A stretch of DNA of 64,000 nucleotides. Source: Hyphomonadaceae bacterium BRH_c29. GTDB lineage: Bacteria > Pseudomonadota > Alphaproteobacteria > Caulobacterales > Hyphomonadaceae. Positions within the stretch are counted from its first letter, which is position 1. Each line of letters starts with the position of its first letter. The notes beneath the pieces were generated by a model, which saw nothing but the letters and a program-made list of their open reading frames with translations, did not search any database and was not told the origin of the DNA. The position numbers and the translations under genes are program-made. The stretch is from positions 1-64,000 of the forward strand of contig LADW01000027.1 in NCBI GenBank assembly GCA_000961695.1, in the 5' to 3' direction. Positions 57,693 through 64,000 of the stretch are shown in pieces.

Positions 57693-58757
57693 TCAGCGGG
57701 GCGGGAATTGCGTACCTTGTTCGAACACATCGGAACAGCGGCGCGTATTTTCGCCCAGCGGCGTGAAGGACAGACAGGAATAATAGGCTGAGCCGCGATC
57801 GCCGAAGTCAGGCGCACCGTGCCATTGGCGCATGCCCTTCTTGCCAGTCCAGTTGCTGATGATGATGCGGCCGGGGTTTTCCGGCAGGTTCTGGTCGCCT
57901 TCCGGTGTTTTGTAGATCAGCTTGCCGTCAACATACCAGCTGATGCCTTCGGGCTTCCAGTCAAAGGCATAGAGGTGGTCTTTTTCCGAGGCATCGAAGG
58001 GCAGCTTGATCCTTGCGTGGTTTCCCGTCTTGCCGTTGTGGAAATAGTTCAGCTCGATGATGTCGGTATCCTTGCCGAGGAATTCGATGTCGATCTCGTC
58101 ATGAGGTTTGCCGAAATAGGGGCCGGTATAGGTGAAGAAGGCCGAGACCAGGCCGGAGCCTTTTGACGGGCGCATGATCGTCTCGTAGCGGCCATAGCCG
58201 TATGTGCCCTGAATCTGCATTTCGCCGAGCGCATAGGGTTTGGCCGGGTTGCCCGTCGGGGTGACGTCGAGGCGAACGCCGTCCGGTCCGAACGTGACAT
58301 TGTCCGGGTTCCAGTCACCGCCCTGGAAGGCATGTTCGTTGTCGTTGGCGTACGCCGAGACGATGTAGCGGTCCGGCTGCATGCCGTCGCCCATCAGGGC
58401 GATGAACCCATCGCCCGATTCCAGAATCGGGGCATCCGGCAACAGCGTGTAGGGGCCTTCCCTCAGCGGCTCTGTTTTGGTGAACGTGTTAACCTGGGCG
58501 TCCTGGCTCCATGGGATCACCGGATCCATGTCTGCGATCACGGGCGCGCGCTTGTGAGTCACCGTCGCCGACGGGTCAGACGTATGTGACTGTGCGATCA
58601 TGAACACGCCAAGGCACAGGGCAAACGCTCCCACCGCCGCCAGGACGAGGTTGCGGGCTTGCCAGTCCTGTGAGGATGGCGTCTGGCTGTGATCTGTTGT
58701 GTCTGTTGCCATTGCTCGGTCCGATCTCATATCGGGCCATCGCAAGAAACGGGCCAT
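57693..58757 (-). CDS. Membrane-anchored GH16-family glycoside hydrolase
   Basis: 354 residues. One membrane helix (~36-56, LVLAAVGAFALCLGVFMIAQ) then a periplasmic jelly-roll. Active-site EIDIEFLG with E221, D223, E225, preceded by YGYGRYETIMRPSKGSGLVSAFFTY; typical of GH16 beta-1,3/1,4-glucanases, ExsH/ExoK-like glycanases. Likely trims an exopolysaccharide. Start overlaps the stop of the cyclo-ligase gene by one base (TAATG); ATG 58712 is an alternative. Confidence 0.9.
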   Translation of the reverse strand: MARFLRWPDMRSDRAMATDTTDHSQTPSSQDWQARNLVLAAVGAFALCLGVFMIAQSHTSDPSATVTHKRAPVIADMDPVIPWSQDAQVNTFTKTEPLREGPYTLLPDAPILESGDGFIALMGDGMQPDRYIVSAYANDNEHAFQGGDWNPDNVTFGPDGVRLDVTPTGNPAKPYALGEMQIQGTYGYGRYETIMRPSKGSGLVSAFFTYTGPYFGKPHDEIDIEFLGKDTDIIELNYFHNGKTGNHARIKLPFDASEKDHLYAFDWKPEGISWYVDGKLIYKTPEGDQNLPENPGRIIISNWTGKKGMRQWHGAPDFGDRGSAYYSCLSFTPLGENTRRCSDVFEQGTQFPPR

Positions 58758-59374
58758 TAGCCCTGTTTGAGGGCTGCCATATTGCGCATCATGAACAGCG
58801 GAACGGACCCAATGGGCGTGATTGCCCAGTCAAGCGGCTGGTCGTGCGGTTCAGTCGGTACTGCGTCGATCTGTTGGGCGGCATAGGCAACCGCGCAGGC
58901 AAAGGCGCGACCGTCCGATCTTAACGTTTGCAGCGCCGTATCGTAGTGGCCTTTACCATATCCAAGGCGGTTGCCCTTGGCATCAAACGCCAGAAGCGGC
59001 GTCAGGATGAGGGTCGGGTGCACTTCCGGGGCATCTTCGGACGGTTCGCTAAGGCCGAAGGGCCTGCGCTCCAGCGGTTCCCCAAAGCTCCAGAGGCGCC
59101 ACGATATCCCGCCGTCCGATAACATGCGCGGCAGACAGAGTTCGGCTCCAGCATCGGCCAACCGCTTCATCAGCGGCATCGGGTCCAGCTCTTCATTGAT
59201 GGGGACGTAGCCCGACACGACCGGACCGTAGCGCTCCAGCAGCTTCATCGGGAACAGCCTAGCGACCTTCTCCGCCGCATCCGGATCACGAGCGGCTGCC
59301 TCGGCGCGGAGGGTCCGCATCCGGTGACGCAGCTGAATCTTGTCGGGTGGGAGCGAAGTCATGCGGTCAGCCAT
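58757..59374 (-). CDS. 5-formyltetrahydrofolate cyclo-ligase
   Basis: 205 residues from ATG 59374 (GTG 59398 and ATG 59362 are alternatives). Converts 5-formyl-THF to 5,10-methenyl-THF with ATP. Motifs: IQLRHRMRTLRAEAAA, VSGYVPINEELDPMPLM, and the substrate loop LLAFDAKGNRLGYGKGHYDTALQ. The gene lies just downstream of the 6S RNA, the widely conserved ssrS-ygfA order. Confidence 0.94.
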   Translation of the reverse strand: MADRMTSLPPDKIQLRHRMRTLRAEAAARDPDAAEKVARLFPMKLLERYGPVVSGYVPINEELDPMPLMKRLADAGAELCLPRMLSDGGISWRLWSFGEPLERRPFGLSEPSEDAPEVHPTLILTPLLAFDAKGNRLGYGKGHYDTALQTLRSDGRAFACAVAYAAQQIDAVPTEPHDQPLDWAITPIGSVPLFMMRNMAALKQG

Positions 59375-59436
59375 AGACGGGTGCGACCGGTGCGTCACGT
59401 CCCCTTGGACGCGCGGCCGTGGATTGGAAGGTTAAG

Positions 59437-59603
59437 TGCACAAGAACCACATGCGCCGCTGGGCATATTCACTCCCGTCAACCTAGAGACTAGGTGGGTG
59501 CCAGGTGAGGCAGGACCACGGCCCTGCCCAGAATGCCGGCTCCCTGACGGAAATTAAGGTCGCCGGAGATCAGTCCCTTTGCGAACGCCGCAGCCCTTGT
59601 GCA
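59437..59603 (-). ncRNA. ssrS: 6S RNA (ssrS)
   Basis: On the minus strand TGCACAAG and CTTGTGCA close a ~167-nt rod. Inside, the 5' side shows GCGGCGTTCGCAAAGGGACTG (like the E. coli GTTCGCAAG...CCAGTCC region), an apical hairpin GGCAGG/CCTGCC, and the 3' bubble contains the small hairpin ACCTAG-TCT-CTAGGT then AACGGGAGTG and AGCGGCGCA, features of alphaproteobacterial 6S RNAs. It lies directly upstream of the cyclo-ligase gene. 6S binds sigma70 RNA polymerase in stationary phase. Ends are approximate. Confidence 0.8.
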
Positions 59604-61382: not shown

Positions 61383-61457
61383 GCGGGCGTAGCTCAGGGG
61401 TAGAGCACAACCTTGCCAAGGTTGGGGTCGAGAGTTCGAATCTCTTCGCCCGCTCCA
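61383..61457 (+). tRNA. tRNA-Gly (anticodon GCC)
   Basis: Acceptor arms GCGGGCG (61383-61389) and CGCCCGC (61447-61453), discriminator T and encoded CCA. Anticodon arm CAACC TTGCCAA GGTTG with GCC in the loop; T arm GAGAG TTCGAAT CTCTT. Its 3' end is the presumed attachment site for the integrase 127 bp downstream. Confidence 0.96.
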
Positions 61458-61583: not shown

Positions 61584-62978
61584 GTGGACAGAACGAACCG
61601 GCATCTGAAGCAAAAACTCGGCTACTGGCACTACCAGCGCCGCGTCCCGAAACGCTATGCGCCGTTCGATCCGCGCGGCGTGATCGAATGCTCCCTGCGT
61701 ACCAAATCGCTCGAGATCGCGCGCATGCGGCGGGACGCGATGGAAGAGTCCGACGACCTCTACTGGGCGATGCTGGCCGGCACAGCCGGAGATGCCGGCT
61801 CACCAGAGAACCTCGCCTTCCAGCTCGACCAGGCCCAGCGTCGCTACAAGGCCGCCCAGACCCGAGCGCTAGCCCGCGGGTTCGTCTATGCCCCGGTCGA
61901 GCAGCTGGCGAGCGAGGCCGACCTCGGCGAACTCGTGGCCCGCATCCGCCGCGTCGACGCCGCAGACAGGGGCCGCCCGAGCCCTACTGAAAAGGTCGAG
62001 GCCGATGCCCTGCTGGGCACGGTCCCGCCGCCGCCGGTCACGGTCTCGGCCGCCTTCGAGATCTATTGCTCGGACATCGCAGCCAGCGAACTTATCGGCA
62101 AATCTGAAACCCAGATCCGGGCCTGGAAGAAAACCAAGCGGCGGGGCGTGCAGTATTTCATCGACGTCGTCGGCGACCGGAACATGCGTGACATCACCCG
62201 GCAGGACGCCCAGCAGTATTATAACTGGTGGAAAGACCGCGTTGTGCCGAAGCCGGGCCGTGAGGCGCTGAGCACCAAGACGGCCAACCGGGACGTCGGC
62301 AACATGCGCCTTCTCTACAGCGCCTACTTCAAATATATCGGCGAGGAAGACCGGCCGAACCCGTTCCGCAACCTTGCTTTCAAGGACCGTCAGTCGACCG
62401 ACGTGCCACCGTTCGAGGATGCGTGGGTGCGCTCGCGGATACTGGCGCCTGGCGCGCTCTCAGGCCTCGTCGGCGGCGCGGACCTCATCCTCTACACGCT
62501 CATCGAGACCGGTTGCAGGCCAGGCGAAATCGCAAACCTCCTGGAAGAGGACATCCACCTCAAGGCCAATGTGCCTTACATCTCGATCCGGCCTAAGAAG
62601 GACCGTGAGATCAAGACCGTGTCTTCGATCCGGGACATCCCGCTGGTCGGCGTCGCGCTGGAAGCCATGCGGCGCGCGCCCAAAGGGTTCCCGCATTATC
62701 GCGACAAGCCGGACCTTCTTTCAGCCAACCTGATGACGGCGCTCAAGTCGCGCGGGCTGTTCCCGACGCCGGCCCACAAGGTTTACTCGCTGCGGCATTC
62801 ATTTGAGAAGCGCATGCAGGAGGCGGAGCTGGATTACGGGTTCCGGTGCATGATCATGGGGCATGCGAATTCGCGGCCTGCATACGGCGATGGTGGGTCG
62901 ATGGAGTACCGGCGTGATCAGTTGTTGAAGATTGCGCATCCGGTGCCGGCGGCATGGGTGAGGGAGCTTTCATCATAA
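61584..62978 (+). CDS. Tyrosine-type site-specific integrase (DUF6538 N-terminus)
   Basis: 464 residues from GTG 61584. N-terminal DUF6538-like segment (GYWHYQRRVPKRYAPFDPRGVIECSLRTKSLEIARMR), SAM-like core-binding region (~155-255), and catalytic domain with R312 (TGCRPGEIANLL), K near 338, YSLRHSFEKRM (R404, H405), IMGHANSRPAYG with H427 and probable nucleophile Y434. The first His of the HxxR motif is Tyr401. It abuts tRNA-Gly, so it should insert an element at the tRNA 3' end. Confidence 0.93.
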   Translation: MDRTNRHLKQKLGYWHYQRRVPKRYAPFDPRGVIECSLRTKSLEIARMRRDAMEESDDLYWAMLAGTAGDAGSPENLAFQLDQAQRRYKAAQTRALARGFVYAPVEQLASEADLGELVARIRRVDAADRGRPSPTEKVEADALLGTVPPPPVTVSAAFEIYCSDIAASELIGKSETQIRAWKKTKRRGVQYFIDVVGDRNMRDITRQDAQQYYNWWKDRVVPKPGREALSTKTANRDVGNMRLLYSAYFKYIGEEDRPNPFRNLAFKDRQSTDVPPFEDAWVRSRILAPGALSGLVGGADLILYTLIETGCRPGEIANLLEEDIHLKANVPYISIRPKKDREIKTVSSIRDIPLVGVALEAMRRAPKGFPHYRDKPDLLSANLMTALKSRGLFPTPAHKVYSLRHSFEKRMQEAELDYGFRCMIMGHANSRPAYGDGGSMEYRRDQLLKIAHPVPAAWVRELSS

Positions 62979-63462: not shown

Positions 63463-64000
63463 ATGTCTAACACGAAGCAAATTCTGGCTCTTTTGAGGAG
63501 CCGCGCCGAAGGGGACGACGAGCAATTTTACTCGATCATTCTTCAGGTTGCCGCCTCTGAAGCACGCCAAGGGCACCGAACTACTGCTGAGGAGCTTCGC
63601 GCAGCGGTTGATGCGGCGAGAGCTAAGCGCTCGGGCGGAGCGAGCGTTGCAATTCCATTCTCCAAGCCGCGCGGTGATCTTGAAACACTTATTGAACTGC
63701 GGGCGCCGCGTACCAAGCTTGAAGATGTGGTGCTTCATCAAGACGTTCTGAATCGTCTTCAAGATGTCATCCGGCAACAACAGAAGCGCGATTGGCTGCG
63801 TGAACATGGAAAGACCCCAAACAGAACCATTTTGTTTTTGGGGCCGCCTGGTTCAGGAAAAACAATGACTGCAGAAGCTCTTGCCGGTGAGTTGCGGCTT
63901 CCTCTGTTTGTTGTCAGGCTTGAAAGCCTCATTACCCGCTTCATGGGCGAAACAGCAGCCAAGCTTCGTCTAGTGTTTGATGAAACGTTGCGAAAGCGCG
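63463..64000 (+). CDS. AAA+ ATPase, IetA-like (3' truncated by window end)
   Basis: 179 residues visible, open at the window end. N-terminal helical region (KQILALLRSRAEGDDEQFYSIILQVAASEARQGHRTTAEELRAAVD), then LEDVVLHQDVLNRLQDVI and Walker A GPPGSGKT (127-134), continuing LAGELRLPLFVVRLESLITRFMGETAAKLRLVFD, an AAA+ core. This N-terminus followed by an AAA core is what I associate with ATPases encoded beside subtilisin-like (S8) proteases, including IetA of the Agrobacterium IetAS system, which has anti-phage and plasmid-exclusion roles. The partner would be beyond position 64000. Codon use is less GC-biased than the rest of the window, consistent with transfer. Confidence 0.72.
   Translation, partial: MSNTKQILALLRSRAEGDDEQFYSIILQVAASEARQGHRTTAEELRAAVDAARAKRSGGASVAIPFSKPRGDLETLIELRAPRTKLEDVVLHQDVLNRLQDVIRQQQKRDWLREHGKTPNRTILFLGPPGSGKTMTAEALAGELRLPLFVVRLESLITRFMGETAAKLRLVFDETLRKR

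Follow-up and report, generated by a model that had tools for sequence, protein, structure and literature searches.

An IetAS-type ATPase-protease pair, probably a toxin-antitoxin module and exchangeable cargo, beside the integrase of a trb-type conjugative element

The ietA-ietS genes of the Ti plasmid pTiC58, reportedly described by Yamamoto et al. in 2009, are reported as a toxin-antitoxin and incompatibility pair, in a branch that others describe as stability systems, and are the nearest characterised relatives of the two genes considered here. These begin at the end of the window, by which we mean the whole 64,000-nucleotide stretch that was analysed (positions 1 to 64,000 of contig LADW01000027.1, assembly GCA_000961695.1, Hyphomonadaceae bacterium BRH_c29). 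A second described system, sgiA-sgiT (S026-S025) of Salmonella genomic island 1 (SGI1), is a toxin-antitoxin pair that stabilises this island in the presence of a helper plasmid; when sgiT was expressed in E. coli, transformation dropped 100- to 1000-fold, an effect relieved by sgiA, and deletion of sgiAT lowered the share of SGI1-carrying cells from 40% to 9% when the IncA/C plasmid was present without selection (PMC5006074). The pairing of the two proteins is already known: in a GenBank survey, SgiT homologues always adjoined SgiA homologues, mostly near genomic-island genes (PMC5006074). In the passages concerned, one study describes the sgiAT promoter in Salmonella as strong in activity and independent of SOS control (PMC9927553), and two others call the ietAS mechanism undescribed or unknown (PMC9958689; PMC11878078). 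Pairs of this kind are also catalogued as anti-phage systems in PADLOC and in NCBIfam, where the proteins are named IteA and IteS.

The preliminary description of the window had tentatively taken a partial ATPase frame at its very end for the start of an IetAS module. This 179-residue open frame (63463-63999) is present and continues past the window end. Using a further 7138 bases of the contig, to position 71138, we found that it closes at 64464 and is followed, after 12 bases and on the same strand, by the S8 peptidase gene that had been named as the decisive neighbour:

63463-64464 (inside the window 63463..64000), plus strand: ietA, AAA+ ATPase of 333 amino acids, recognised by Pfam, PADLOC and NCBIfam profiles
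64477-66972 (beyond the window), plus strand: ietS, S8 (subtilisin) peptidase of 831 amino acids, recognised by Pfam and PADLOC profiles

The ATPase matches Pfam AAA (PF00004, E 1.8e-30) and the PADLOC IetA model (E 5.2e-71, 238 bits; E 2e-38 for the 179-residue piece alone), and the peptidase matches Pfam Peptidase_S8 (PF00082, E 1.2e-53) and PADLOC IetS (E 3.9e-30, 102 bits). Taken alone, the ATPase match is weak evidence because the host's FtsH-like protein, scanned as a control, also matches PADLOC IetA through its AAA core (E 2.2e-36, 124 bits); the N-terminal 85 residues of the window IetA reach E 2.2e-4 by themselves. The adjoining S8 peptidase settles the identity, and we regard it as virtually certain that this is an IetAS pair. 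The preliminary description had allowed that a different AAA family might fit the ATPase better, and none does, the IetA models coming out on top in both collections. TRIP13 (51 bits), DolB and mad8 score far lower in PADLOC, and FtsH and PAN were likewise rejected in NCBIfam, in which IteA scores 191 bits and the runner-up, FtsH, 103 bits.

The motor residues of the ATPase and the catalytic ones of the protease are all intact. In IetA these are Walker A at 127-134, Walker B D185/E186, pore-loop F160, sensor N229 and arginines R240/R241; in IetS they are the triad D281/H319/S555 and oxyanion N436. An aromatic pore-loop residue before a glycine, arginine fingers, Walker motifs and the fold are all as in the threading AAA+ motors proteasome Rpt, PAN, FtsH and Vps4, and a structure predicted for an IetA of 69% identity is similar to the motors of the proteasome, FtsH and Vps4. 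The model has N-terminal helices at 2-16, 19-35 and 39-57; the structural matches listed mainly cover residues 69-331, and none among them is to a MIT domain, the three-helix type of Vps4. This conserved threading-motor anatomy provides a concrete mechanistic hypothesis for IetAS.

We next placed the pair among its relatives. Trees of IetA and IetS agree in a 27-row clade (support 100 and 99) that includes the window pair and the K84 plasmid pair and is separate from the remaining groups, and a more careful IetA tree of 32 rows gives the same clade with support 100/99. The 42 rows are a chosen set of pairs that leaves out most of the truncated ones and of those at contig ends, keeps a frame-changed one (L062) and includes 7 of 34 viral pairs; 32 of the 42 were used in the careful tree. 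The K84 pair is reported as 100.0% identical in DNA over 3501 bases to NC_003065.3; this A. fabrum C58 replicon of 214,233 bp is presumably pTiC58. On these trees, both window genes are placed in the clade of the founding pTiC58 pair, with which they share the arrangement of an AAA+ ATPase followed by an S8 peptidase on one strand. They differ from it in being carried on an integrative conjugative element instead of a plasmid and in about half of their residues (IetA 49% and IetS 42% identical). To sgiA-sgiT the window pair can be likened by families, gene order and location on an integrating mobile element; SGI1, unlike the window element, is mobilisable and not self-transmissible. Thus a pTiC58-type IetAS, known from plasmids and from an integrative mobilisable island, occurs also in a conjugative element with trb genes of its own.

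With the anti-phage IetAS of PADLOC and NCBIfam the window pair shares both domains and their order, and it matches both models significantly. Against the NCBIfam anti-phage equivalogs (NF042959 and NF042956), however, it scores 191 of the 510 bits required for IteA and 36 of the 900 required for IteS, and the pTiC58-type pair is also below the cut-offs, at 199 of 510 and 40 of 900 bits. The further family members that were scanned (L040, L056, L060, L072 and L073) did not reach the cut-offs either, the best being L073 of genome G080 with 287 of 510 and 350 of 900 bits. On the PADLOC IetS models the window protein has 102 bits and the pTiC58-type protein 86, against 991 for the G080 variant and 700 for that of G064. 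The relatives with high PADLOC IetS scores fall in other tree groups than the window pair, in trees whose rows include no IetAS with anti-phage activity tested by experiment and in which the grouping of L073 with L068-L072 may be false. We therefore file the window pair as a pTiC58-type IetAS and not as an anti-phage equivalog. For this branch the "anti-phage" annotation rests on the family name, since even the plasmid-stability pair that founded the family does not reach the curated cut-offs. The G080 pair resembles that of the window in adjoining a DUF736 gene and trb genes, with 86-96% identity to their counterparts in the present element; it differs in that its IetA is 34% identical and outside the 27-row clade, in its tRNA-Arg and in being reversed relative to trb.

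These scores bear on the role proposed in the preliminary description, that of a phage-defence module, in which infection would upset IetA or activate IetS and lead to protein cleavage and abortive infection. Beyond the catalogue entries, a review table places ietAS beside functional phage proteins as changed in escape (PMC10286901), and in the relevant part of a study of P. aeruginosa isolates with Pf phages, IetAS in a Pf genome was associated with resistance; the same part reports that lysogens of the IetAS-bearing phage were not obtained, so the resistance is a correlation only (PMC11878078). Relatives are found in 34 IMG/VR viral contigs (at most 49% IetS identity, over nearly full length), and viral genomes commonly carry defence cargo. 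A defence role of the window pair is possible, and we word it no more strongly because the nearest characterised relative is the pTiC58 toxin-antitoxin/incompatibility pair and because both proteins lie far below the curated anti-phage cut-offs. We consider defence a minority reading with a substantial chance of being right, and one that is compatible with stabilisation of the element, for which we turn to the carrier.

The preliminary description had also placed the pair right behind an island integrase. The integrase is there, and the island appears to be an integrative conjugative element of the trb type, with integrase, tRNA and trb genes all present. From the tRNA inwards the order is tRNA-Gly, integrase, ietA-ietS, DUF736 gene and trbI-trbG-trbF:

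61383..61457, plus strand: tRNA-Gly (gcc), attachment site (attL), found with ARAGORN
61584..62978, plus strand: tyrosine integrase of 464 amino acids with N-terminal DUF6538, by Pfam
67486-67806 (beyond the window), minus strand: DUF736 gene
within 68043-70982 (beyond the window, near the contig end), minus strand: trbI, trbG and trbF, by profiles

The integrase starts 126 bases after the tRNA-Gly and matches DUF6538 (E 5e-7) and Phage_integrase (E 8e-6; 26.1 bits, just under the cut-off of 27.1). Its relatives (E <= 1e-40) are found in 71 of the 299 genomes of the order, and the four that were checked (76-93% identity) all adjoin tRNA-Gly (gcc). Within the genus, the integrase lies behind the corresponding tRNA in 3 of 20 loci, window included, with 1.2 to 1.5 kb read at each. 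When the host genome was searched with patterns of 28 and 19 bases for another copy of the tRNA-Gly end, the tRNA itself was the only match. An exact 14-base copy of the tRNA end is located on contig C95 (25703-25716); a coupling-protein gene lies at a distance of about 1.2 kb, and a homologue of the chromosomal flank (64% identity) is close by. We propose this site only tentatively as the right end of the element, because the distance to the flank exceeds that at the empty site of genome G001 by about 1.6 kb and because the coupling gene could belong to a second trb element of the host. The latter is on contig C8 (L165 1303-11547), has a TrbI 92% identical to that of the window and carries an RND efflux pump (Pfam ACR_tran) near its DUF736 gene. 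L056, L063 and L072 also have trb genes close to IetAS, and Pfam detected no integrase among four large neighbouring frames at these loci.

We then asked what occupies the interval between trbI and the integrase in related elements. Among the matches listed, 27 such slots were chosen by eye as elements spanning both genes; they range from 0.7 to 14.5 kb, with a median of 4.7 kb. Six are near-empty (< 1 kb), two carry IetAS (the window and L040), and 19 carry other genes, which Pfam identified in some cases, among them an oxidoreductase (L135), a RelA/SpoT-domain protein (L142), a TonB receptor (L139) and an endonuclease-family protein (L153). L042, which is nearly identical to L040 and also has IetAS, spanned only DUF736 to integrase and is outside the 27, as is L159. 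In L040 and L042 the tRNA is tRNA-Asp, the pair is reversed relative to trb in comparison with the window, and IetA is 65% identical; this orientation and identity suggest that the two lineages acquired IetAS separately. If IetA-like places were spread evenly (genome size taken as 3.5 Mb), 0.005 would be expected in those 130 kb, a figure to be read with the window as the starting point, so that the independent find amounts to one lineage. The GC content at third codon positions (GC3) of ietA (0.54) and ietS (0.525) differs from that of the integrase gene (0.81) and the trb genes (0.73-0.79). Since slot content varies among related elements, IetAS was rejected as a fixed component and is regarded as exchangeable cargo. 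The slot of L159 (1317-5059), whose integrase is 93% identical, holds a gene for an 839-aa protein without Pfam or PADLOC match and a DUF2806 gene. In genome G185, a gene on the far side of trbI (L171 7393-8643) encodes a protein of 416 amino acids that is partly similar to IetA (113 bits).

The distribution of the pair was analyzed more widely. In the order, IetA-like places number 40, in 38 of 299 genomes (E <= 1e-30), and 37 of them have an S8 sequence directly downstream on the same strand; two are at contig ends and one (G003) is without. Of those 37, two (G274 and G028) keep only N-terminal S8 remnants and one (G222) has a change of frame. The FtsH-like locus has no S8 sequence downstream. 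When 107 loci from IetA scans of genomes and viral contigs were scored (five had no IetA frame to score), all 13 with a paired S8 gene had an IetA of at least 125 bits, and no paired locus was found below that value; L258 and L261 reach it with no pair detected. The IMG/VR scan with IetS found IetA upstream in 33 of 34 loci, the remaining one starting at a contig edge. Across 376 genomes of the class, IetA is present in nine (E <= 1e-60), IetS in 10 and both in seven. IetA alone was seen in G568 (no S8 seen) and G658 (a 51-residue IetS remnant), and IetS alone in G417 and G635, whose loci show little or nothing of the upstream side, as well as in G630, which has an IetA of another clade next door. 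Plasmid relatives comprise 437 IetS records (E <= 1e-10) and 625 IetA records (E <= 1e-20), the latter possibly including other AAA proteins. In view of an AAA core related to FtsH, PAN and Cdc48, one could imagine a housekeeping unfoldase-protease machine for FtsH-like quality control, without toxin-antitoxin function. The patchy occurrence in order and class, the plasmid relatives and the foreign GC3 of the pair all argue against this, and we consider it very unlikely. In IMG/VR contigs L347-L350, L361, L365 and L366, IetAS ends a few hundred bases from the contig end, a position that resembles a prophage edge and could be a trimming artefact. In genome G083 (L041 11255-14198), two HipA-family genes (Pfam) lie directly 5′ of the IetAS pair, possibly forming a toxin-antitoxin gene cluster with it.

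A toxin-antitoxin pair is predicted to show more broken toxins than broken antitoxins. We found six cases of a broken IetS beside an intact IetA (G274, G028, G003, G222, G658 and viral L377) and none of a clearly broken IetA beside an intact IetS; two are ambiguous, the IetA match of G362 lacking the first 45 residues and the IetS match of viral L372 the first 136. We do not take the excess as proof of toxin-antitoxin behaviour, given few cases, most of them found via IetA, and the bias from gene length. Alternatively, truncation, frame change or loss of IetS in six relatives may reflect decay of cargo without function. Here neither frame is interrupted and no catalytic residue is missing, and close relatives show purifying selection where it is measurable, which makes decay extremely improbable here. 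In G003 (L054 8041-9143), an IS3-type transposase pair (Pfam HTH_Tnp_1, rve) occupies the ietS position beside the intact ietA.

We conclude that the locus is probably a pTiC58-type IetAS toxin-antitoxin pair that serves as exchangeable cargo and is placed beside the integrase in an integrative conjugative element of the trb type. By homology, IetS would be the toxin and IetA the antitoxin. IetS may be a cytosolic protease that poisons the cell if unrestrained, and the IetA threading motor may unfold it or otherwise hold it inactive. The protease would be freed when a cell loses the element, or when a rival element or a phage disturbs IetA and the balance of the pair, and such cells would be killed or stalled. 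The element would in this way be inherited stably, and phage defence may be a second benefit. Judged by kinship, element maintenance appears better supported than defence, so that stabilisation, with or without phage defence, is the most likely role, and we lean towards it as the main selected one. Several observations weigh against this interpretation. Expressed from its own promoter, sgiAT caused no post-segregational killing, and its deletion led to no loss of SGI1 when the IncA/C plasmid was absent (PMC5006074). A promoter scan 5′ of ietA found no consensus promoter. The excess of broken IetS is not significant when one considers that the toxin is 2.5 times longer (0.71^6 = 0.13, calculated by hand).

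A further, rather speculative extension is that IetAS modules serve as weapons between sister elements, modules of clades that do not neutralise one another being swapped into one end of closely related trb elements and each IetA disarming its own IetS only. If this were true, an element with one type of IetAS would exclude or outlast an element with another. No second IetAS was found when the host assembly was searched with the window IetA.

Elsewhere in the window, a 6S RNA (Rfam, 56 bits) is located at 59440-59599 on the minus strand, just upstream of the frame 58757-59398 on the same strand, which looks like 5-formyltetrahydrofolate cyclo-ligase, presumably the known neighbourhood of 6S RNA.
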